DNA of 64,000 bases from a virus, in IMG/VR virus record IMGVR_UViG_3300034683_000192, positions 62,001 to 126,000 of that record; one strand, written 5' to 3'. This document shows, in pieces, positions 35,668 through 55,385 of the stretch. Position 1 is the stretch's first letter. The number at the start of each line of letters is the position of its first letter. The notes below the pieces were generated by a model. That model made no database searches. It was given only the letters and a program-made list of their open reading frames with translations, and had not been told where the DNA came from. The position numbers and the translations under genes were made by a program.

Positions 35668-35760
35668 GATGTTCCTCCGTTGTAAAATTTGTACTCGTAC
35701 ATGATGGTAATGATCCATCATATTTAACATCGAGTAACTACGATATACATGGAGGGAATC

Positions 35761-36993
35761 ATGTTTGAAAATTTTGTCAAGCCTGGAAAAATCAATATGG
35801 TGATCGATGGTGCATTTGGTAGCACTGGTAAAGGTGCGGTTGCTGCACGTATTGCCATGGACACAGATATCATCCATCTTGCGTGCAGTACCACATCCCC
35901 CAATGCAGGACATACGTTCTATTGGAATAATACCAAATACATCACGCATCTCATTCCGGCTGCTGCGATCATCCATGACAGATGTGGAATTTACATGTCC
36001 GCAGACTCAGTCATCGACTACGATCTACTCATGAAAGAAATGGACGAATTTAACATAGACGATGGTCGATTGTTCATCCATCCTCGTGCATGTGTAATCA
36101 CTGATGAAGATAAAGAAATCGAAGCTCGTCATGGTGGAATCGAAACGATCGCATCCACACAGTCTGGAGTAGGATCTGCTCGTGCGAGAAAGATCTTGAG
36201 AACAGGGCTTCTTGCTGAGAATGATCCAAGACTTAAGGACTATGTCAAGAAATACGACATTCGTCGAGACTTCGGAGAAATCGAAGACTGTAAAGTACTC
36301 GTCGAAACAGGACAAGGTCTAGGTCTCGACATCAATCATGGATATAGCTATCCGTATTGTACATCAAGATCTGTACTTCCAGCAAAGGTTCTTGAGGAAC
36401 TCGCACTACATCCCAAGTATTGTGGGAACATTATGCTCTGTTTTCGGACATTTCCTATCAGAGTGGGCAATCCCACAAGAGACGGAAAAGAAGTAGGATT
36501 CTCTGGTCCTTTCTGGGACGATTCAGTAGAAACATCCTTCGAAGAAATCGGAGTAGATAAAGAACTCACCACCGTCACAAAACGGGTGCGACGTGTTGCT
36601 ACGTTCTCAGTAAAGCAATACGAAGACGCAATTTACACGATTGAACCAACGCACGTAATCATTACGTTCATGAATTACCTCGAAGAGATGGAAGATTTCC
36701 CTATACTTAAGAGAGCCCCAGACTACATCAACGTAGGTCCTTACCCTGATGATATTTGTGCATTTCCTGGGTGGTGCAACGAGATTCCTATCGTTATGAC
36801 CAACAAGAGATTTCAGAAAAGATTGGCGGTACTTCAAGAATGGATTGATGAAGCATATGCCATCAATTCCGCAGTACTTACAAAAACTATGACCATCACT
36901 GATGACGGATACACGGAATTGAAAGAATTGCTCAGAATGCTTATCCAGCGTAAGAGCGATTTGAACTATATGTATCGACATACAAACAAATGA
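35761..36993 (+). CDS. Adenylosuccinate-synthetase homologue with Ser in place of the catalytic Asp (PurZ-like)
   Basis: 410 residues from the ATG at 35761 (GGAGG upstream). Seen: the N-terminal loop GAFGSTGKG matches PurA GTQWGDEGKG but has Ser21 where PurA has its catalytic Asp. PNAGHTF keeps the NAGHT His (His51). STQSGVGSARARK replaces TTGRGIGPAYEDK. ETGQGLGLDINHGYSYPYCTS matches EGAQG...HG.YPY.TS. KRVRRVA matches the GR.RR.G loop. Established: PurA joins IMP and aspartate using GTP; PurZ of Z-genome phages acts on dGMP toward diaminopurine and has lost that Asp. Inference: a 2-amino-deoxyadenylosuccinate synthetase or related purine ligase. No datZ, mazZ or dpoZ is seen in this window. 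One of three plus-strand genes. Confidence 0.8.
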   Translation: MFENFVKPGKINMVIDGAFGSTGKGAVAARIAMDTDIIHLACSTTSPNAGHTFYWNNTKYITHLIPAAAIIHDRCGIYMSADSVIDYDLLMKEMDEFNIDDGRLFIHPRACVITDEDKEIEARHGGIETIASTQSGVGSARARKILRTGLLAENDPRLKDYVKKYDIRRDFGEIEDCKVLVETGQGLGLDINHGYSYPYCTSRSVLPAKVLEELALHPKYCGNIMLCFRTFPIRVGNPTRDGKEVGFSGPFWDDSVETSFEEIGVDKELTTVTKRVRRVATFSVKQYEDAIYTIEPTHVIITFMNYLEEMEDFPILKRAPDYINVGPYPDDICAFPGWCNEIPIVMTNKRFQKRLAVLQEWIDEAYAINSAVLTKTMTITDDGYTELKELLRMLIQRKSDLNYMYRHTNK

Positions 36994-38060: not shown

Positions 38061-38090
38061 GAGAGACAGGAGGTTTCCCTCCTGTCTCTC
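38061..38090 (-). terminator. 13-bp hairpin ending the tRNA/tmRNA cluster
   Basis: GAGAGACAGGAGG arms, GAAA loop on minus, 11 bases after tRNA-Ser. Confidence 0.82.
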
Positions 38091-38101
38091 ATGTATTAAA
38101 A

Positions 38102-38191
38102 TGGCGGAAGGAGAGGGATTCGAACCCCCGGTAGGTTTCCCTACGTCGGTTTTCAAAACCGATGCAATTAGCCAGACTCTACCATCCTTCC
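38102..38191 (-). tRNA. tRNA-Ser (anticodon UGA)
   Basis: Seen on the minus strand: a 7-bp acceptor stem GGAAGGA/TCCTTCC, a discriminator G and an encoded CCA. The anticodon stem closes the loop TTTGAAA (anticodon TGA), and a long variable arm (GTAGG...CCTAC) is typical of serine tRNAs. It is the last RNA of the cluster in the direction of transcription and is directly followed by a GAGAGACAGG hairpin. Confidence 0.95.
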
Positions 38192-38202
38192 GTAAATTGC
38201 AT

Positions 38203-38586
38203 CTATTCGGGAGTGCGGAATCCGAGCTTGGAGAATCTCCGCAGATTGTTAATAATCCGCGTTACACCCGCGAGAAGTTCATGAATCAGTCGGACCTTGA
38301 AGACGTCAGCATCAGTAGGAGACGCTGCATATCTGATACGATCTGTGAACTGAAACCCATCGGTGCTTCTCCACAGAACACAACTAAAATCCGTCGTGTC
38401 CATGGTCAGTTCAACCCATACGGTCTGATCAGAGCTGATGGATACATCGAGCTGAAACCAATCCAGAGGATCATTGATATCGTGAATGTTCGCGCAGATC
38501 TCTTCGACGACAGTCTTCGCGATTGTGAACTGTTCTTCGCATGTGAGTTCCCGATGTCGTCCAACACTAGCGATGCTTGCGCACAT
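38203..38586 (-). CDS. Unknown protein inside the RNA cluster
   Basis: 127 residues between tmRNA and tRNA-Ser, AGGAG upstream of the ATG. The sequence is alpha/beta (helix CEEQFTIAKTVVEEICANI, then strands WFQLDVSISS and TVWVELTMD) and ends in a basic helix (LAGVTRIINNLRRFSKLGF). No family recognised. Its position suggests that it is co-transcribed with the RNAs and that processing of the RNAs releases it as mRNA. Confidence 0.72.
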   Translation of the reverse strand: MCASIASVGRHRELTCEEQFTIAKTVVEEICANIHDINDPLDWFQLDVSISSDQTVWVELTMDTTDFSCVLWRSTDGFQFTDRIRYAASPTDADVFKVRLIHELLAGVTRIINNLRRFSKLGFRTPE

Positions 38587-38614: not shown

Positions 38615-39010
38615 TGGTGGAGCCGGTGGGAATCGAACCCACGTCTTGAACTGGAATCAGAATTGCATCTACGTGTGTATCCTCAGTGTTTTCTGACCCG
38701 AGGCTTGGTCGCTCCTATTTTTCAAAGGTGGGGTACGGAGAACTCCTACCACCTAGGGTTGACAATTTAAATGCGATCACCACTCGCATCGATCCAGATA
38801 AGTTTCGCACTTCTTCTTTATCTGACGTCCAGAGAAGTACGTGCTCCTCTAGGGAGCAGTGGCTCTAGGCGGCGTTCGCGTAAGCGAAGTCGTCACGAGC
38901 GGGAGCAGCAAGAGCGTTGGCAGTTGCTTTCGTTGGGCTTTTTAACGCGGCCAGCCCACCGCGACACGCAGCAGTATCCTATCCAACTCAATCGAAACCA
39001 GGGCGGCCCC
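38615..39010 (-). ncRNA. ssrA: tmRNA (transfer-messenger RNA) with encoded tag peptide
   Basis: Seen: 5' end GGGGCCG pairs with 3' CGGCTCC for a 7-bp acceptor stem with a G-U at the third pair, the alanine identity element. Next to it are discriminator A and encoded CCA, and a T-arm GTGGGTTCGATTCCCAC. The 5' part has CTGGTTTCGATTG, as in tmRNA tRNA-like domains. A tag reading frame runs from a GCA codon (38925-38927) to TAG (38865-38867). It gives a peptide starting Ala-Thr-Ala-Asn (or Ala-Asn if the resume codon is the later GCC) and ending DDFAYANAA. Hydrophobic ...AA ends are the normal protease signal. Length about 396 nt, one piece. Established: tmRNA plus SmpB rescues stalled ribosomes and tags the peptide for degradation. 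No smpB is seen here, so the host protein would be used. Confidence 0.92.
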
Positions 39011-39019
39011 ACTTTAATT

Positions 39020-39095
39020 TGGCGCGCTCGAGAAGGGTCGAACTTCTGACCAAGAGTTTAGAAGACTCCTGCTCTATCCACTGAGCTACGAGCGC
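39020..39095 (-). tRNA. tRNA-Arg (anticodon UCU)
   Basis: Seen: acceptor stem GCGCTCG/CGAGCGC, anticodon stem GGAGT/ACTCT around loop CTTCTAA (anticodon TCT, reads AGA), T-arm with GTTCGAC and encoded CCA. It lies 10 bases upstream of tmRNA on the minus strand. AGA is rare in many hosts, so this may help phage translation. Confidence 0.93.
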
Positions 39096-39110: not shown

Positions 39111-39186
39111 TGGTCGGAACGACTGGATTTGAACCAGCGACCCCTGCTCCCAAAGCAGGTGCGCTGCCAGGCTGATCTACGTTCCG
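39111..39186 (-). tRNA. tRNA-Pro (anticodon UGG)
   Basis: Seen: acceptor stem CGGAACG/CGTTCCG, anticodon stem CCTGC/GCAGG around TTTGGGA (anticodon TGG), T-arm GGTTCAAATCC and encoded CCA. The C1-G72 pair is typical of bacterial proline tRNAs. Confidence 0.95.
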
Positions 39187-39203: not shown

Positions 39204-39278
39204 TGGAGCGGGGTACGGGATTTGAACCCGCAACAGCTGGGGCGGAGACCCAGTATTCTACCTTTGAATTAACCCCGC
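39204..39278 (-). tRNA. tRNA-Gly (anticodon UCC) with unusual C33
   Basis: Seen: acceptor stem GCGGGGT/ACCCCGC, discriminator U with encoded CCA as in glycine tRNAs, anticodon stem CTGGG/CCCAG around TCTCCGC, T-arm GGGTTCAAATCCC. The loop gives anticodon TCC but has C instead of the near-universal U at position 33, and its D-arm (TTCAAAGGTAGAA) is short. It could be functional, degenerate or misread. Confidence 0.85.
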
Positions 39279-39281
39279 ATC

Positions 39282-39825
39282 TCACATACACTCGCGTTTC
39301 TTGGTAGGAAGACCAAGAAAATTGGCCCATTTACGAACCGCGTTATCACTAACGCCATATTTCTCACCAACTTTCGTCACTGGCATTTGTGAAAGGTCTC
39401 TTCCTAGTTGATCAGCGTCCGGTCGATTCACCTTTCGTGACGACATCTGTGCACACGAGTATGAACAAAATTTTTTCTGTCCTATATCTAGAGATTTTCC
39501 ACACTCCAGACAATGTTTATTCCGTAATGCTTCTTTCGCTACATGTATGGGATTTGGAAGTATTACTCGGGTATCCATCCATTTATGTAATTTTGCATGC
39601 TGGGAGTTACGAAGAATCAGTAAATTTCTTGGGTCGTTGTTACTTTTATTGCAATCAAGATGATGAACTACTTCGTCACTTCGCAATCCTTCAGGAACTG
39701 TGGAATCCGCTACTAGAATGTGTTCGTATACATATCCCTTATAACTTCCAGATCTGATTGCTCTAGGATGCTCTGGAGCATAACACTAATACATATCCTG
39801 AATCTTTTATTATCCGTTTATTCAC
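39282..39825 (-). pseudogene. HNH homing endonuclease with one-base frameshift
   Basis: Seen: GAGGAG and a GTG start at 39825 open MNKRIIKDSGYVLVL. After one extra T at about 39779-39788, the frame moves to YAPEHPRAIRSGSYKGYVYEHILVADS...LRSDEVVHHLDCNKSNNDPRNLLIL, a typical HNH endonuclease core, followed by a four-Cys zinc motif (CLECGK ... CSYSC) and a helix-turn-helix-like end. Established: such genes cut DNA at a site lacking them and spread by repair. The stop lies 3 bases before tRNA-Gly. Removing one T from the TT would restore a single frame of about 180 residues. It may be inactivated or a sequencing error. Confidence 0.82.
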
Positions 39826-45087: not shown

Positions 45088-48000
45088 TTATGCCAGAGAT
45101 TGTGGGAACTTGTACCCCTGTTCAGCAAAAGCCCGGACGAGTGCTTCTGCATACTGGGGACGGTAAGCATTCAACTTATCAAACACCACTGGGGTGATGT
45201 CAAGAAGTGCTTTTACCGTACTGATCCCGAGAGGCCGCAGAGCTGAGAGAACAGCGGCCTGACAACCACGAGAGGTACCATCTTTCTGCATGGTCTTTAC
45301 CTTGATATTGCACAAGGCAAAGAACTTCGCGAGGGTTCCATCGGGATTGGTTTCGTAGTACTTTTGAATGTGAGTCCATCCATCAGATTCGGAGTTGATC
45401 TCGATGTTAGACAGAGGGTTATCTGCCTTTTCCGCTTCCTGCAGTTCTTCGACCGCATTAGCAATAGCGTCGAGATCGACATCACTTGCAGTAGTAACCA
45501 CTTCAGGTTCTTGTTCCTTTGTGGATACATCCTCCGCAATGATGTGCGGTTCCTGAATCTTTTTGCTTTCAACGAATTTCTTCAGGAGATTGCGGATCTC
45601 AAAGAATCCATTCGTCGTTTCTTCTGGAATGAAGATTTCCATGAAACTGAGCATGCAGGACAGGAACCAGATTTTCACCGGGTAGTCCTTGATGGTCTGC
45701 ACGCAACGGGTGAACCACTCACCAGTCGTCACCGAGAATTCCGTACAACCACGTGCATTCGCTTCGAAAAGCGCAATCGCACAGAGCAGGTACTTCTCGT
45801 ATGCCGAGTATTCCCTATTACCGAAGTATTCGGGAACTCTGGTGGATATTTCAGGCCACACCGCATCGATGAGACCCACGAGTTTGCCAGCAGAAATGGA
45901 ACCATCGAGTTTCTCGAATTCTTCCATTGTGACAATATCGTAGAATGCCATCAGCGATGTACCAGTCTGAGAGACCGTCGATCGCTTCCCTGCGATGTGA
46001 AGATACATGAGGTAGTCGAGCTGCGGGAAGTAGTGACGGACACATCTGAGAGACACGTATCTGTATACTTCCGGATCATCGAACTTCCTACCGATCGAAC
46101 GTTTGAGGTCTTCGAGATCTCTGGCGATCGATGGGTACTGGATACTGAACTGAGTTATGGCAATCCCGATTCCTGAGAACCTCACAGGAGTAGGATTAAG
46201 CTTGACGCCCTTTTCAGCGAGACCAGTCAAGAAGGTTTCTTCCATTCCAGGAGTCGTCAGGGCTGGCTGAAGTTTCCGATCTTCTTCTTTGATGGAGACT
46301 CGTTCCGATTCGACCACTTCCCGAATGTCCTTCGGAAGGACTTGCGCATCGGGAAAAGTGTACTCGCGGATAAGCGTACCATCGTCATCAGTTCCCATGG
46401 TCAGATTTTCTTGTCCTTCCATGGGTTCAGGAATTTCGTCCTGATTGAGATCGCCAGAATAGTGCTCCTGTGTACCTGGATAATTCCGGCCAAGCGGTTC
46501 CCACGTGTATGTGGTTTCTGTCGTTGGAATTTCGACTTCCATTGTACTGGCAGCTTCTTCCTTGGACTCTTCTACCGATTCAGGAAGTCCCACTTCCGAC
46601 GATTTCGATAGGTGAGCCATGAGCTTGTTCTTTTGTGCATCCCACCAGTCGAGAATGAATTCAGCTTCGATCTGTTCGAATGCTTCATCAATCCACGTCT
46701 TCACCCAGTAGAACGTCTCATCATCAGAATGTTGACGTACCAGCTTCGCGATCAGACAGAACATCGCGATGAAGTACTTCTCATCCGGAGAGGTTTTACG
46801 AGTGTCGTCATGGAAGAACTCATGCATCTTGTCGCTCCCGAAATAGTGGGAGTTGGACATATCACGGAATACCGTGTGAACGAGCTTTGCGTACGTCTGA
46901 CCAAGGAATCCTTCATCAAGACTATGCCCTTCCTCGTGGAGGTACGTCATGATGTCGAATACCAAGAGTCGCAGATCCCCGAAAGAGGTCCCAGAGTAGA
47001 GAAGCAGCGCGATATAATCAAGATCACTCCGTTCGAAGTTTTCCGACTTATCACGAATGATTCCGTACATGATCGAGAGATCTGCTTTGAGTACGAAATT
47101 CGCGCGATGGAGCGCCGTGTATGCTGAAGGGATCTGCTTTACTGCGCGAGTCATCCGATCACGCTCTTCTGCGTATTCTCCTCGCGTACCGAGATAGATC
47201 TCGAAGTTCGGATCACTTCCTCTGAGCATGACGGAATTGTAACTACCGAGAACATAATCGTCCACGATGTGATGGAACCACCACCGGCAACCGGTTACCC
47301 AGAGACTGCAGGTCGAGCATTCGGGGATTGACGATATGCACGACTTCAGCCATGCGGTAACCTTCTGATGATACCCACTGAGCGCAGGATCGTTCGAATT
47401 CGAAGCTGCTTCCACCATGAGGTGGATCATCGCGAGCATGAACCGATGCTTGTGCGTGGTTTTCGAAAAAGATGTCAGCCTATCTGCCGGATTCGGTCCG
47501 ACCAGATCGACGTAGATTCCGAGATGACGGTAGAGCTCTTCCTGTCTGATGACGAACTGCGTGGTTGCGTTGTCAAACAAGTAACTGAAGAATTCTTCGG
47601 TAATCGTGAGATCATCGAGGAATTTCATGGTACGAGTAACGAGCCGAATGTACTCTACTTTTTCCTGAGGAGGATTGTATTTCCATGCGTATATGAGATA
47701 TCCGATTTCCCGCAGGTGATGATTCGGGGGATAGAATCCGATATCTCTGTGCATTTCACGCACATCGAACACGGTAGAGTTCACGAAATCCGCGAGATCG
47801 AGATATCCCTTACTCCGGAATCGTTCGATCGCATCTTCGCGGTAGCTTTCCCGCCGAGCTTCAATTTCTTCTTTGCTCGGGTCAGTCGACAGCACGTCCG
47901 ATGCGGGAAGAATTTCTTCTGGAGCGAGATCTGCTACCAGAGTAGCGCCAGTGTGGATGATGGGAATGATGAAGGTTTCCACCACATTTCTTCGCTCTCT

Positions 48001-49956
48001 GATTTTTCCCATCTGGAATTCGAGGATCATTTCGATAATGGCATCGAGAATGGTATCCTCCGAAACATCCGTACTGAGAGTACCTTCGGCTTCCGCTTTT
48101 TCGAGATCTTCTAGTTCCGCCAGGAATAGATCAGTGAACACTCGTTTGTCCGTACTGTGATAGTCGAACGCACGAGCGCTTGCTGGATATTTGTCGATCT
48201 TCAGCAGAGCAGTCATGATCTGCGCCCACAGATATCTCCGTTTATTCGTGGATGAGACGACGGAGTTGACCTTACTAACGTTGTACAGGTATTCAGTCAC
48301 ATCCTCCGTGATGAACTGCTGACAACAAATCAGACTTTCCAGCGAAATGCCTATCTCCCCGATTTCGATGATATTCGATGACGGATCATTGAAGAAACCG
48401 ATAAGTCGGTCGAAGTCCTCGCTCGTGTTGTCTTTTCCGTCAATAAGGTCACGTACCGTACGACTGAACACGCGTACTTTCGTATTCATGTCAATCGTAC
48501 ACGAGATTGCGATGATGTACGCACGAAGGACCACAGGCAGAATTTTGGAATCCCAGATCTCTTCGTGTAGTGACAACGACATAAGACCTGGAGCGATGTA
48601 CAGATTCGGAATATTCCATTTCTCACCGATATCGACTTTGCGAGTCTCAAGAAGATACTGTTCAGTCCTCCTGATTTCATCGATGAGTTCTTTCACTGTA
48701 CCACAGGACAGCATCCGCCCGAAGCAGCGCTCGATCCTCGCCTTGTCGTAGTCAGTGTCCTCTACGAAATGTTCACCAAAGAAATGCGATTCGAGTGTCT
48801 TCACTGTCGCGAATTTTGTGGAATCATTCCTTCCCCAGACAGTAGAAATGGCGTATATCCACCAAGTCACGATTGGGATCTGCTGGATATTTCCATACCC
48901 GAATTTCGGGATTGTCTTCAGTTCGAGAGGCCGATCTTTCGGAAGAAATTCGTTCAGCTCCTCGATATTGTGGCAGATGATCCGGTGCATTTCTACGAGC
49001 CGATCGACCAGCAGGCTACCACCGAGCTCACGATACTTGTCGTAGAAGTTGTGACCAAGATCGAAAAACTCATTTGTGAGCCACTGTTGATTGCGTATAC
49101 CGAGTCTTCCGGTATTGTATTCAAGGTATGCGCATATCACGAAAAATGCAATAACGTCAAGAATACCTGAATCGTCGATCTTCAGGAATTCTGCAAGTTT
49201 TGCATTTTCTTGACGATTGGTCAGCATCAGTTTCTTCATTTCTTCGGTGACGAATCCGAAACTGACCAAATCATCGTACACCTGAGATGTGGTATCGGGA
49301 GTCGTGGTTTCCGTAAGCACTTCTTCCGCTTTCTTGATGAGACGAAGTACTTTGCGCGGCTTGTTCGCATCGCTCATCGCACTTTTCAGAGATTCGCCTG
49401 CAGAAAAGATCAATTGTCCTGCCGAAGGAGTCTCTTCCTTGGAAATCGGTTCAGATGATCCAGTCAACTCTTTACGGAGTTTGGCATCCGTTTCGGTTCT
49501 GATCGTGCAGATGAGATCCAGAAGATCGTCACGAGTATCGGTAGCCATACTCTTGGCGATTCTGAATCCCACAGATTCTTCAGGGAACAGTTTCTGGAAG
49601 AGTTGGAAATTCGGATTGAATAGATTCGTCAGACCAGCGAAGATCCACGGATCTGCCGGGATGAATCCAGGTATGATGTTACCGATCATGACCTGATGCA
49701 TGCATCCGTATTTTTCCGAAGGAAAGAATGCGAGACCGCATGCGAATGTACCGACACTGGTATCGTCGATGACGTTGGGCATCAGAGGGCACCAGATGAC
49801 ACTGTTATTAGGCATGATCTCTTTCGGACCCACACCTCTACACAGTTCCTCTGCGATGATCTCGGCACCATATTCCGCCGTACTAAAGAACCTGGACAGC
49901 AGATCTTTTTCGATGAGTTCAAGAACATCGTTGATGCTGAACGTATTTTCACTCAT
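45088..49956 (-). CDS. Giant unknown protein
   Basis: 1622 residues from the ATG at 49956, which has GGAGG upstream; an in-frame GTG at 50031 is a possible alternative and the frame stays open further into the gene before. The sequence is predominantly helical and acidic, with no signal peptide, membrane span or known catalytic motif seen. A Ser/Glu/Thr-rich linker around residues 1180-1260 separates a large N-terminal part from a C-terminal part. The last 60 residues (SRGCQAAVLSALRPLGISTVKALLDITPVVFDKLNAYRPQY) may be a small helical domain. Proteins of this size in jumbo phages are often virion or injected proteins; this is a guess. It is followed by a perfect 32-base palindrome. Confidence 0.78.
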   Translation of the reverse strand: MSENTFSINDVLELIEKDLLSRFFSTAEYGAEIIAEELCRGVGPKEIMPNNSVIWCPLMPNVIDDTSVGTFACGLAFFPSEKYGCMHQVMIGNIIPGFIPADPWIFAGLTNLFNPNFQLFQKLFPEESVGFRIAKSMATDTRDDLLDLICTIRTETDAKLRKELTGSSEPISKEETPSAGQLIFSAGESLKSAMSDANKPRKVLRLIKKAEEVLTETTTPDTTSQVYDDLVSFGFVTEEMKKLMLTNRQENAKLAEFLKIDDSGILDVIAFFVICAYLEYNTGRLGIRNQQWLTNEFFDLGHNFYDKYRELGGSLLVDRLVEMHRIICHNIEELNEFLPKDRPLELKTIPKFGYGNIQQIPIVTWWIYAISTVWGRNDSTKFATVKTLESHFFGEHFVEDTDYDKARIERCFGRMLSCGTVKELIDEIRRTEQYLLETRKVDIGEKWNIPNLYIAPGLMSLSLHEEIWDSKILPVVLRAYIIAISCTIDMNTKVRVFSRTVRDLIDGKDNTSEDFDRLIGFFNDPSSNIIEIGEIGISLESLICCQQFITEDVTEYLYNVSKVNSVVSSTNKRRYLWAQIMTALLKIDKYPASARAFDYHSTDKRVFTDLFLAELEDLEKAEAEGTLSTDVSEDTILDAIIEMILEFQMGKIRERRNVVETFIIPIIHTGATLVADLAPEEILPASDVLSTDPSKEEIEARRESYREDAIERFRSKGYLDLADFVNSTVFDVREMHRDIGFYPPNHHLREIGYLIYAWKYNPPQEKVEYIRLVTRTMKFLDDLTITEEFFSYLFDNATTQFVIRQEELYRHLGIYVDLVGPNPADRLTSFSKTTHKHRFMLAMIHLMVEAASNSNDPALSGYHQKVTAWLKSCISSIPECSTCSLWVTGCRWWFHHIVDDYVLGSYNSVMLRGSDPNFEIYLGTRGEYAEERDRMTRAVKQIPSAYTALHRANFVLKADLSIMYGIIRDKSENFERSDLDYIALLLYSGTSFGDLRLLVFDIMTYLHEEGHSLDEGFLGQTYAKLVHTVFRDMSNSHYFGSDKMHEFFHDDTRKTSPDEKYFIAMFCLIAKLVRQHSDDETFYWVKTWIDEAFEQIEAEFILDWWDAQKNKLMAHLSKSSEVGLPESVEESKEEAASTMEVEIPTTETTYTWEPLGRNYPGTQEHYSGDLNQDEIPEPMEGQENLTMGTDDDGTLIREYTFPDAQVLPKDIREVVESERVSIKEEDRKLQPALTTPGMEETFLTGLAEKGVKLNPTPVRFSGIGIAITQFSIQYPSIARDLEDLKRSIGRKFDDPEVYRYVSLRCVRHYFPQLDYLMYLHIAGKRSTVSQTGTSLMAFYDIVTMEEFEKLDGSISAGKLVGLIDAVWPEISTRVPEYFGNREYSAYEKYLLCAIALFEANARGCTEFSVTTGEWFTRCVQTIKDYPVKIWFLSCMLSFMEIFIPEETTNGFFEIRNLLKKFVESKKIQEPHIIAEDVSTKEQEPEVVTTASDVDLDAIANAVEELQEAEKADNPLSNIEINSESDGWTHIQKYYETNPDGTLAKFFALCNIKVKTMQKDGTSRGCQAAVLSALRPLGISTVKALLDITPVVFDKLNAYRPQYAEALVRAFAEQGYKFPQSLA

Positions 49957-50041
49957 GGGTTTCCATCCTCCACAGATGTAGTTGAGCTTAGTGTATACGT
50001 ATGTCGTGATGATGTCATTCCTGACATGCACACGAATCTTC

Positions 50042-50335
50042 TCACCGGTCGTCGTCAGATTCGATGCAGTAACTGTCTTCTTCTTCACGCTCGCAGACGA
50101 TGTACCCTGATCCTTCAAGTACACCAATCATCGCTTCGTAATTCAGAATCCCATCAGCATCTTCTGAATCGTAGGTGATGATGAGTACTGACGTAGATCC
50201 CGAAGTGGTTTCACCTGAGTCATCATCAGTGCTACCAGGAAATACGTAAGTATCTTCGACGCCATCTTTGGTCACAAAGATGACAATCGGATAAGTCTGT
50301 TCAATTTTTTCCTGAAACAAAAGCATATCGAACAT
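50042..50335 (-). CDS. Small acidic protein
   Basis: 97 residues, AAGGAG before the ATG. Seen: an N-terminal strand-rich part (TYPIVIFVTKDGVEDTYVFPG), a Ser/Thr/Asp-rich loop, then SVLIITYDSEDADG and a very acidic end (CEREEEDSYCIESDDD). Such acidic small phage proteins may mimic nucleic acid or inhibit host enzymes; nothing specific supports that. It precedes the giant gene. Confidence 0.72.
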   Translation of the reverse strand: MFDMLLFQEKIEQTYPIVIFVTKDGVEDTYVFPGSTDDDSGETTSGSTSVLIITYDSEDADGILNYEAMIGVLEGSGYIVCEREEEDSYCIESDDDR

Positions 50336-51679: not shown

Positions 51680-54600
51680 CTATTCTTCAGTGTCGATTCC
51701 TGGAATCTTGATCTTGTCGGCGATGCTCTCGTAGGTATTGCGCATGGTCGATTCCTGCGCTTTACCCTTATTCCATCTGGACACTGGAGTATAGAACCCG
51801 ACGACTCTGGAGTAAGTCTCAGCACCACAGCCACATTTCGGGCAAGCATCAACTTTTCCAGGAAGATATCCATGTGATGCACACACAGAATAATCCGGAG
51901 AAATCGTGATGTACGGAATGTGGTAATTCGTGCAAAGCTTCTTGACCAAGTTCTTTACGACATTGTGATCTTTGATCGCTTCACCAAGAAGAACATGAAG
52001 TACTGTACCACCAGTGTAAATGGTCTGCAGACCATCCTGATGTTCAAATACTTCGATGATGTCGTCACTGTAATCGACAGGTACCTGAGTCGAGTTGGTG
52101 TAAAACGGCTCGGCACCGAGAATCTTGGAAGAAGCTGTGATGATGTCAGGATACTTCTTCGAGTTCAGTTTGGCAAGACGATAGCAGACACCTTCAGCTG
52201 GAGTTGCTTCCAGGTTGTAAAGGTATCCTGTTTCCTGCTTGAACTGATCACATTTGTCACGCATGAACCGAAGAACCTTCTCAGCAAATGCTTTGCCTCT
52301 TTCGGTAGTGATCGGTTCACCGAAGAGATTGAGGCATGCTTCATTACCACCGACGAGGCCGATCGTCGAGAAGTGATTGTGGAAGTATTCTCCATGTCTT
52401 GCAAAAGAGTCCTGAAGGTATACCTTCGAGAACGGGTAAAGACCAAGCTTTGTCTGCTGTTCGACGAAAGTCCGCTTGTCTTCGAGAAGTTCCTTCGCGA
52501 TATGCATGTACTTGTCAAGGTATTCGAAGAACTTGGATTCATCGCCCTTGGCAAGATATGCGAACAGCGGAAGGTTCTGAGTAACCACCCCAACGGAACC
52601 AGTCATGGGGTTGGCATTGAAGATACCACCACTTCTCTGACGCAGTTCGTTGTTGTCAAGCTGAAGATGGCAGTTATGCGTGACCATACCACCTTCTTTG
52701 AGCTCGAAGAGATGGTCATCGGATCCGACGGAGATGCAGTACGCGTAAGGTGCGGTTTTCTTCTGCTTCTCGATTTTCGTGATCGGAACCATGATGAACT
52801 CACCATGTACGAATGCACCCTTGGGGAGAGTGGAGAGATCTCTTCCAGTAATGCTGTACGGAACGAAAGCACCCACTTCGAGAGTATCCGCACTATACGT
52901 GCGCATATCTGTAAGCTCATGTTTTCCTTCCGTGTTCTTCTTGAGATACATTCGAGGTTGTTGATGGTTGTTCTCGAATGTAACTCCATCTGGATCATAC
53001 GCTGTCTTTACGGTAACAAATCCGTCAGGAGAAACCGCAACGACCCCAGTGACAGGAATTTCTTTTCCATTCAATCTGACGTAGTAGCCATCACCATTCA
53101 CGTAATGTCCATCAGGATCGCATCTATTTATCAGGTGATGATGAATCGAACTGATATCCATGATCAGCCAATTACCATTCATCTTGATGGAGATCTTCTC
53201 GTCAGGATGAAGCGGACACATGGATCTGATATCTTCAGGATTGAGATCTGAGTTCACGAAGTTCGTGAAATAGGGAGCACCGTATTTTGCTGCAAGCATC
53301 CACAGTGCATCGAGATTTTCGTTATCCCAGTTGAACTCTTTGGTGATGTTGTAGTTCGGAATTGGGAAAGAGAACTGGCGACCGGATGCATCTCCCTTGA
53401 GCATGACTTCACAGAATGCTCGGTTGAACATATCCATTTCTTCCTGAAAATCCCCGTAGGTATCGGAATCATGGAATTGTCCACCATGAATCACAGGTTC
53501 ATTCTTCATGTACGAAGGAACCGTAAGATCCATTGAAACATTCGTGAAGGGGCAATTTCCGGTAATGAAAGGAACACCGTTTTCTGCCTTGCAAATAAAC
53601 GTACCGGTATCAGTAGTCGGGCACCAGACCACCCCATCAAAATCAACGACATCGGACGTCACTGACGCATGTGACTTTTTGTACACAGTCACAGTGTCAG
53701 TACACGACAGCTGACGATTTCTCTTTGATCCGTATCCTGACAGCACGAGTAGAGACTGAATACACTCCGCCATGTAATCATTTTTCTTACCGATACGAAT
53801 ACGACCATTTGGCTCAATGTGCCCATCTGCATGAATCATCGTTTCGAGAAGAATTTCAATCTGTTCCACCGAAGCGTGGTTGATGAAATCCAAGGGAATG
53901 GCTTCTCGGTTTCCGCCAGTGTATTCCAAGATTTTCTTGGCGTAATCTCCCTTCACATCGAACCGATATACTTCATCGCCGTATCCACCACCGCCAGCGG
54001 TATTTGCGTACCAGTCCGCATCCAGACGAATGAGAAGATTTGCGACTTCGTGTGCATATTTTTTCGGTGACTGGTAGATACGAAGTCTGCTGCTGCGAAG
54101 ATCCATATGGCAGTCAGTAAGTGCCCATCCAAGCAGTCGGATTTCGTCGTTGGTCATGTCAACACCACGACGATTTACACGACCGGCAAGAGGGATATCG
54201 ATCGGTGTACGATACTTCTGATAAATATCTCCAGAAGTTTCGATTACGTAACTCGACGAGTTGAATTTACGTCGAATTGTGCGGTGATCGGGTGTGGTAA
54301 GAATATTCAATTTTCTTCCATGGAAATTGATCATCTTTCCACTGTAATCATAAACATTGACTCGCGTCAGTACATCAAGACGAATTTCTCCGGTATCTTT
54401 ATCGAACACGTAGATCGGATCTCCGATTCGAAGTTCGTCATGACTTTTCCACCCTTCTGGAGTAAGACAGGTGTACGTGTCAGGTACGCACTGGAAGCCT
54501 ACTCTGGTCTTAGTCGTCATGTTGTGGAAGAATTGCTGAAGCTTCTGCTTCACTTCTTTATACGTCAGACCATCATAACGAATGAATGGTGCGAGATAGG

Positions 54601-55294
54601 TATCGAAGTTACTGAATGCCTGAGCACCAGCTGCTTCACCTTGCATGGTAAAGAGGAAGTTCCAGCACTGGCCGAGAGCCACATCGAAATGCTTCGCAGG
54701 TCCAGCATCATTGGCGCCTTCGACACCACCGAAACCTACGAGAAGCACCTGCTTGATGTCCCACCCACAGCAGTAGGGAGCAAGCAGATTGAGATCGTGA
54801 ATATGCAAGAAACCATCGACGTGAGCAGCTCTGGCATCAGGAGAATAAATTTCGTTCAGCCAGTAGAGAGACATCGCCTTAGCGGCAACGTAATGATTGA
54901 GTCCCTGCAGGGAATACCCCATATTGGAGTTTTCCTTGATAGACCATTCTTCCTTACCAAGGTATTCCTTGACAAGGTTGATGAGTGCTGAATCGGAAAG
55001 ATTACGTACATCTTCACGATGCTGACGATAGATGATGTACTTTTTTGCTGTACCGTAATGTCGTGCGTACATGAGCGCACGTTCGACGAAATTCTGGATA
55101 TCTTCGATGGTAATGACATTCGACGAATCGAACTCATTCTGTATGTCATACAGAACAAGGTCAGTGATCTTGACTGCGTCCACTGATTCACCAGACGAAG
55201 CAGCTGCTTTCGAAATGGCGATTTCGATCTTCTTACGATCGAACGGTACTGCAGTCTTTCCGTCGCGTTTCATCACAGTCGTCGGCTGAAGCAT
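51680..55294 (-). CDS. nrdD: Anaerobic (class III) ribonucleotide reductase with two inteins
   Basis: 1204 residues as translated from the ATG at 55294; removal of two inteins (312 and 182 residues) leaves 710, the usual length (E. coli 712). Seen: ATP-cone at the N-terminus (VMKRDGKTAVPFDRKKIEIAI); catalytic domain (YCCGWDIKQVL, CPFTNVSMDLT, NNELRQRSGGIFNANPMTGSVGVV); C-terminal zinc site (VCASHGYLPGKVDACPKCGC); glycyl radical loop RVVGFYTPVSRWNKGKAQE with the radical Gly at about 1166. Established: it reduces ribonucleoside triphosphates under anaerobic conditions after activation by NrdG (28437-29153). A TTTCTTTTTTGTT element lies upstream. Confidence 0.95.
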   Translation of the reverse strand: MLQPTTVMKRDGKTAVPFDRKKIEIAISKAAASSGESVDAVKITDLVLYDIQNEFDSSNVITIEDIQNFVERALMYARHYGTAKKYIIYRQHREDVRNLSDSALINLVKEYLGKEEWSIKENSNMGYSLQGLNHYVAAKAMSLYWLNEIYSPDARAAHVDGFLHIHDLNLLAPYCCGWDIKQVLLVGFGGVEGANDAGPAKHFDVALGQCWNFLFTMQGEAAGAQAFSNFDTYLAPFIRYDGLTYKEVKQKLQQFFHNMTTKTRVGFQCVPDTYTCLTPEGWKSHDELRIGDPIYVFDKDTGEIRLDVLTRVNVYDYSGKMINFHGRKLNILTTPDHRTIRRKFNSSSYVIETSGDIYQKYRTPIDIPLAGRVNRRGVDMTNDEIRLLGWALTDCHMDLRSSRLRIYQSPKKYAHEVANLLIRLDADWYANTAGGGGYGDEVYRFDVKGDYAKKILEYTGGNREAIPLDFINHASVEQIEILLETMIHADGHIEPNGRIRIGKKNDYMAECIQSLLVLSGYGSKRNRQLSCTDTVTVYKKSHASVTSDVVDFDGVVWCPTTDTGTFICKAENGVPFITGNCPFTNVSMDLTVPSYMKNEPVIHGGQFHDSDTYGDFQEEMDMFNRAFCEVMLKGDASGRQFSFPIPNYNITKEFNWDNENLDALWMLAAKYGAPYFTNFVNSDLNPEDIRSMCPLHPDEKISIKMNGNWLIMDISSIHHHLINRCDPDGHYVNGDGYYVRLNGKEIPVTGVVAVSPDGFVTVKTAYDPDGVTFENNHQQPRMYLKKNTEGKHELTDMRTYSADTLEVGAFVPYSITGRDLSTLPKGAFVHGEFIMVPITKIEKQKKTAPYAYCISVGSDDHLFELKEGGMVTHNCHLQLDNNELRQRSGGIFNANPMTGSVGVVTQNLPLFAYLAKGDESKFFEYLDKYMHIAKELLEDKRTFVEQQTKLGLYPFSKVYLQDSFARHGEYFHNHFSTIGLVGGNEACLNLFGEPITTERGKAFAEKVLRFMRDKCDQFKQETGYLYNLEATPAEGVCYRLAKLNSKKYPDIITASSKILGAEPFYTNSTQVPVDYSDDIIEVFEHQDGLQTIYTGGTVLHVLLGEAIKDHNVVKNLVKKLCTNYHIPYITISPDYSVCASHGYLPGKVDACPKCGCGAETYSRVVGFYTPVSRWNKGKAQESTMRNTYESIADKIKIPGIDTEE
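52673..53218 (-). mobile_element. Intein 2 in NrdD, mini-intein without endonuclease
   Basis: 182 residues inserted next to the conserved active-site segment RSM-C-HLQLDNNELR. Seen: it starts CPLHPDEKISIKMNG, includes VKTAYDPDGVTFENNHQQPRMYLKK, and ends GGMVTHN directly before the native Cys. The terminal His-Asn and +1 Cys needed for splicing are present. No LAGLIDADG or HNH motif is seen, so it can no longer home by itself. It interrupts the most conserved part of the enzyme, the usual intein strategy. Confidence 0.88.
53555..54490 (-). mobile_element. Intein 1 in NrdD, with LAGLIDADG-type endonuclease
   Basis: 312 residues. Seen: it starts at a Cys (CVPDTYTCLTPEGWKSHDELRIGD), has a block with ILTTPDHRTIRRK, two LAGLIDADG-like helices (LLGWALTDCHMDL and LLETMIHADGHI), and ends at FITGN just before a native Cys (CPFTNVS). 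The endonuclease motifs are partly degenerate, so cutting activity is uncertain, while splicing residues (Cys1, terminal Asn, +1 Cys) are intact; the penultimate residue is Gly instead of the usual His. Confidence 0.9.
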
Positions 55295-55385
55295 GAGTAA
55301 GTCTCCATGAATGTTGGTATGGGAGATAAGTGGCAGATGGAACATAGCATACCTTGTTAAGTAGGAAGATAAAATCGAAGTCAGA

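Follow-up and report, generated by a model that had tools for sequence, protein, structure and literature searches.

Every available sequence test supports a complete phage-encoded tmRNA at positions 38615–39010 (minus strand) of the window, as we call the whole 64,000-nt stretch of DNA analysed here, whose numbering is used throughout (Table 1). ARAGORN and cmscan placed the ends of this one-piece (ssrA) gene of 396 nt identically. The covariance model RF00023 was matched over its entire length (model positions 1–374 of 374) with 130.6 bits (E = 8.3e-51), far beyond chance given the gathering score of 47 bits. No other tmRNA was detected in the 199,880-base virus record that contains the window. 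The preliminary description, made from the letters of the sequence, had proposed a phage-encoded tmRNA of about 396 bases here and a search against tmRNA covariance models as a check; the search bore out the identity, and the extent proved exact. Phage tmRNAs are already known from a few percent of phages, and this one is real but fairly ordinary. New are the phiKZ-like lineage of its carrier and the -NAA end of its peptide tag. We consider it probable that the gene yields a working one-piece tmRNA that borrows its protein partners from the host.

Architecture of the gene and the tRNA array

The tRNA-like domain contains each element that had been read in it by eye, namely a 7-bp acceptor with G-U at pair 3, a T-arm and an encoded CCA. 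All seven acceptor positions are paired (GC GC GU GC CG CG GC), and five pairs make up the T-stem and eight the P2 segment adjoining the domain. The CCA end is gene-encoded (...CCACCA), and the D-loop, CUGGUUUCGA, retains the RF00023 consensus motifs CUGG and UUCGA. The G-U pair of the acceptor has a role in alanine charging.

PK1 consists of 5 + 6 pairs and PK2 of 9 + 7 or 9 + 8 pairs, the two versions of PK2 scoring equally. At the expected place of PK3 we found a hairpin alone, the second stem being unsupported, and the formation of PK4 appears weak and doubtful (Table 1). The preliminary description had named a lack of pseudoknots as an argument against a tmRNA; two of the four are present, one is unsupported and one is in doubt. 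The pseudoknot-free minimum-free-energy fold was moderately more stable than those of shuffled sequences (z = −2.14; 4/100 as good).

Table 1. Features of the tmRNA gene and its surroundings, in window coordinates
Feature	Position	Strand	Evidence
One-piece tmRNA (ssrA), 396 nt	38615..39010	-	RF00023 130.6 bits, model 1-374; ARAGORN
tRNA-like domain, 5' part: acceptor 5' strand, D-loop CUGGUUUCGA, P2 start	38983..39010	-	ARAGORN, gene 1-28
PK1, stems CGCGG/CCGCG + UGGGCU/AGCCCA	38934..38963	-	0/300 dinucleotide shuffles of its segment score as well
Tag frame ANALAAPARDDFAYANAA + TAG stop, resume codon GCC	38865..38921	-	ARAGORN, gene 90-146; resume region RF00023-aligned
Hairpin 3' of tag, UGCUCC/GGAGCA	38842..38858	-	Helix search
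PK2, CGUACUUCU/AGAAGUGCG + (U)CAGAUAA/UUAUCUG(G)	38794..38841	-	4/300 shuffles as good
Hairpin at expected PK3 place, GAUGCG/CGCAUU	38770..38790	-	170/300 shuffles as good
Possible PK4, AGGUGG/CCACCU + CUCC/GGAG	38712..38754	-	32/300 shuffles as good
tRNA-like domain, 3' part: P2 3' strand, T-arm, acceptor 3' strand, CCA	38615..38654	-	ARAGORN, gene 357-396; helix pairs
HNH endonuclease ORF, directly upstream of array	39282..39686	-	Pfam HNH_3 E 1.3e-5; phrog_15471 E 9e-27
tRNA-Gly(TCC), first of array	39204..39278	-	ARAGORN, cmscan
tRNA-Pro(TGG)	39111..39186	-	ARAGORN, cmscan
tRNA-Arg(TCT), 9 bases upstream of tmRNA	39020..39095	-	ARAGORN, cmscan
127-aa ORF between tmRNA and tRNA-Ser	38203..38586	-	Without PHROG or Pfam family
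tRNA-Ser(TGA), last of array	38102..38191	-	ARAGORN, cmscan
13-pair hairpin, GAAA loop, terminator-like, directly after tRNA-Ser	38061..38090	-	Terminator scan

The gene lies in an array that reads, in minus-strand order, HNH endonuclease ORF, tRNA-Gly, tRNA-Pro, tRNA-Arg, tmRNA, 127-aa ORF, tRNA-Ser and hairpin; the four tRNAs are all those found in the whole record. The spacing of the array suggests one common transcript that would be processed in the manner of tRNAs. The hairpin that closes it is by far the longest of seven terminator-like sites, where 1.9 were expected. One sigma-70-like site was observed, which is below the chance expectation; a phage that encodes its own polymerases can do without sites of this kind. 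The 127-aa ORF gave a single-sequence model with pLDDT 65 and no confident fold match, for which reason an SspB-like or other adaptor role was dropped.

An HNH_3-type endonuclease gene also adjoins a permuted tmRNA call in Achromobacter phage JWDelta (L046). In Tunturiibacter phage Tunturi_4 (L049) the neighbour of a permuted tmRNA call is an annotated RF-1-domain release-factor-like gene, which puts two ribosome-rescue elements together.

The peptide tag

The tag frame (GCC AAC GCT CTT GCT GCT CCC GCT CGT GAC GAC TTC GCT TAC GCG AAC GCC GCC TAG) was read by ARAGORN as 18 codons and a stop, in agreement with the open frame ending DDFAYANAA-stop that had been noted before. The 18 residues of ANALAAPARDDFAYANAA are many against 16 bacterial tags (median 10, range 9–16 residues) but not against 22 viral one-piece tags (median 17.5, range 8–31), half of which (11/22) have at least 18. 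A search with a tmRNA pattern of similar layout yielded 34 IMG/VR records, and the viral set is what remained after removal of 12 without a one-piece ARAGORN call. The tag had been called long, which holds for the bacterial comparison; its being unusual as a long tag outside the AND type does not hold, since such a tag is ordinary for a phage. Seven IMG/VR records (L212, L222, L223, L231, L233, L234 and L236), starred as a group in our tmRNA tree, have viral tags of ~30 residues with common ...EADAILAKFGWAEEAAVAA-like ends, two of which were read shorter by ARAGORN.

In E. coli, ALAA drives degradation by ClpXP and AANDENY drives SspB binding, as reported in PMC8512704. ANALAAPARDDFAYANAA has neither a terminal ALAA nor an initial AANDENY; it ends in ANAA, and the ALAA at residues 3–6 is internal, not C-terminal. 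In an E. coli-like host, SspB binding is therefore not expected and recognition by ClpXP is uncertain. This raises the alternative of a working tmRNA with a re-written degron, in which ClpXP would recognise -YANAA poorly or a different protease or adaptor would read it, uncoupling rescue from proteolysis or re-aiming the latter. The division of labour reported for the E. coli tag agrees with it, and so does the absence of an NAA end from all 38 compared tags (0/22 viral, 0/16 bacterial). The pattern [FY][AST]YANAA-stop had 17 matches in genome_contigs and 2 in viral_contigs, none of them a tmRNA by ARAGORN, and the tag-pattern searches returned no second tmRNA with a -YANAA-type end. Yet the tag still closes with AA, like 18/22 viral and 16/16 bacterial tags, and we regard a re-written degron as unlikely.

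A phiKZ-like carrier

The attribution to a phage was confirmed by the phiKZ-like proteins of the record. We class it as phiKZ-like because six of its proteins belong to phage multisubunit RNA-polymerase families (phrog_2986, 2962, 3015, 3295, 2987 and 3148). The phiKZ-type major head protein (phrog_3231, E = 1e-17), DNA polymerase (phrog_2927 and phrog_3011) and DnaB-like helicase (phrog_3213) were matched as well, and phiKZ gp50 matched the phrog_2927 protein with E = 4e-45. In tblastn searches, the 586-aa polymerase subunit matched 294 phage records, all at <60% identity; the best among the matches listed reached 31–33%, to Erwinia phages and phiKZ-like Pseudomonas phages. At the DNA level, none of 50,697 phage records closely matched the 24-kb stretch around the tmRNA.

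The nuclear shell family phrog_4795 was present in 6/9 records searched and was not found in this record (G000) or in its nearest IMG/VR relatives, G001 and G002; hence we describe the carrier as a phiKZ-like phage without a demonstrated phage nucleus. A phmmer search of this record with phiKZ gp54 (chimallin, the shell protein of the nucleus-forming Chimalliviridae) gave no match, and tblastn gave none above noise. Incompleteness of the record or too strong a divergence of the protein may account for this. The chimallin candidate L004:16380-18272 was rejected (model pLDDT of 35, unusable; no relatives; no PDB match). The three records without recognisable chimallin possibly represent a group without a phage nucleus. 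Synteny of the array with G001 was also rejected, as only six window ORFs matched anything in G001 and none of them adjoins the array. One could imagine that a phiKZ-like lineage without a recognisable nuclear shell, its mRNAs open to host RNA-cutting defences, acquired a tmRNA with a re-written degron (-YANAA). Ribosomes on defence-cleaved mRNA would then be recycled, and the tagged fragments handled unlike those of the host itself; we hold this combination to be quite improbable.

Three further genes of the window deserve mention. An anaerobic ribonucleotide reductase NrdD ORF of 1221 aa (51680–55345, minus) matched Pfam NRDD in three stretches, and by eye its translation has two intein-like insertions with a Cys start and a ...GN/C or ...HN/C end. 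An adenylosuccinate synthetase-like protein of phrog_1211 is encoded at 35749–36993 (plus); the name of this family hints at PurZ and at a genome with 2-aminoadenine. A 1679-aa protein without a PHROG family is encoded at 45088–50127 (minus).

Phage tmRNAs had been called rare in the preliminary description; they are uncommon, but well documented. A published survey reports them in 402/18,146 phage genomes (PMC9004378), and a list from 2014 names nine mycobacteriophages besides Bacillus phage G, including one that carries just the tRNA-like domain (PMC4131195). The tmRNAs of Bacillus phage G and of the mycobacteriophages Bxz1, Catera, Wildcat and SlimJimmy are one-piece like this one, although their hosts and phage families differ from ours; the SlimJimmy gene (99.7 bits) likewise lies between tRNA genes. 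The huge metagenome phages reported in PMC7162821 are similarly large and tmRNA-carrying, but are described with SmpB, which was not found here. According to PMC9004378, the tmRNAs of the marine methylophage Melnitz and of further aquatic phages are thought to use host machinery; those are two-piece (permuted), whereas ours is one-piece.

Among phiKZ-like phages the picture is different: RF00023 matched none of 16 named phages searched as whole records, and none of 80 IMG/VR records reached its cut-off. The 16 were diverse picks among 60 listed of the 294 polymerase-matching records and were searched with stricter filters than the 80, which had been collected by alignment of the 1507-aa polymerase subunit and include many fragments (4 to 325 kb), with 73 further relatives outside the set. 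In the 80-record searches, the one-piece controls passed the cut-off (this record and SlimJimmy, at the scores given above). Of the two-piece controls, PHB04 was matched below the cut-off and the CcrPW matches were tRNAs, so the zero counts cover one-piece tmRNAs. Weak matches occurred in 17/80 records at E ≤ 0.001 (best 22.7 bits) and were rejected, ARAGORN finding tRNAs or nothing (25 loci, 0 tmRNAs). A 12-bit match in G001/G002 (model positions 82–140) was discarded too; it had no Rfam match to E = 1 and no ARAGORN gene, and by eye the site reads as part of an ORF. Conversely, the polymerase subunit occurred in 0/34 of the tmRNA-pattern IMG/VR records, in a search whose positive controls were phiKZ and this record. 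Among the matches listed in our literature searches, we found no publication that describes a tmRNA from a phiKZ-like phage, which leaves its absence from print unproven. Some papers on phiKZ phages contain "tmRNA" solely in the ARAGORN reference, and the word is absent from the jumbo-phage overview PMC7824862.

Given these zero counts, the gene was probably gained recently in the lineage, and they suggest that it comes and goes within a phage lineage. Its source is not apparent among the sequences compared. Like bacterial one-piece tmRNAs (RF00023), it has the G-U acceptor, CCA, PK1, PK2, the resume region and the AA tag end; it differs from them in the 18-residue tag (vs ~10), the NAA end, the weak PK3 and PK4 and the location in a phage tRNA array. 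The best identity to 38 other tmRNAs was 53%, and in a tree of all 39 no well-supported group contained it. BLAST in 369 Gammaproteobacteria genomes covered, among the matches listed, only the last 30–40 bases of the tmRNA, and when the tmRNA by itself served as query in a more distant search, only short matches appeared, mostly at the 3' end. Assigning a host by tmRNA similarity was therefore abandoned as uninformative (one class searched; tree placement unsupported). A recent gain could also mean that the gene is a decaying passenger, recombined from a host and no longer functional. The lack of tmRNA matches reaching the cut-off in the other phiKZ-like records, the HNH endonuclease ORF adjoining the array and the unsupported, perhaps lost PK3 are compatible with such an origin; nevertheless, the tag frame is intact, no pair is missing from acceptor, T-stem, PK1 or PK2, and no close bacterial source was seen in the comparisons above. 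We find decay very unlikely.

Predicted role during infection

The reading that we prefer, a working tmRNA served by host partners, draws on the full-length RF00023 match, on the intact acceptor, T-stem, P2, PK1, PK2 and resume region, on the stop-ended tag frame and on the location in a tRNA array closed by the 13-pair hairpin. Against it count the unconvincing PK3 and PK4, the z-score of the fold and the ANAA end without AANDENY. SmpB (PF01668) was not found in the 199,880-base record by a search that was positive in 12/14 control genomes, so host SmpB would be needed. An RF-1-domain rescue factor (PF00472) was not detected in the record either, and the tmRNA thus most likely uses the alanyl-tRNA synthetase, SmpB, EF-Tu and proteases of the host.

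That no SmpB of its own was found would also suit a decoy RNA, which would inhibit host trans-translation by titrating the SmpB of the host or by occupying stalled ribosomes, as has been proposed for RNAs with the tRNA-like domain only, e.g. that of mycobacteriophage DS6A (PMC4131195). A decoy, however, could dispense with the tag frame, the resume signal and the pseudoknots, and these have been kept; we consider this role highly improbable.

For a working tmRNA, we infer transcription, charging, SmpB binding, tagging and proteolysis from the sequence as follows. The tmRNA would be transcribed together with the three upstream tRNAs, and its 5' end would be cut as in a tRNA. Host AlaRS would charge it with alanine via the G-U at acceptor pair 3, and host SmpB and EF-Tu would bind the charged molecule, which during infection would enter ribosomes stalled on broken or non-stop mRNA. 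Translation would resume at GCC, append ANALAAPARDDFAYANAA after the uncoded alanine and stop at UAG, whereby the ribosome would be freed and the tagged fragment marked for host proteases. Rescue of ribosomes stalled on phage or cleaved host mRNA and re-targeting of degradation, the two options first suggested for this locus, are plausible. For the phage, the likeliest gain would be that ribosomes caught on broken mRNA in the infected cell are recycled. In PMC9004378 it is suggested that phage tmRNAs help to maintain the hijacked machinery, or that they allow the amino acids of host proteins to be recycled.

With this record, phiKZ-like phages join the tmRNA-carrying phages. Phage tags are long and variable in comparison with the sampled bacterial tags, and they are therefore good material for asking whether phages alter the proteolysis half of the system while keeping ribosome rescue.
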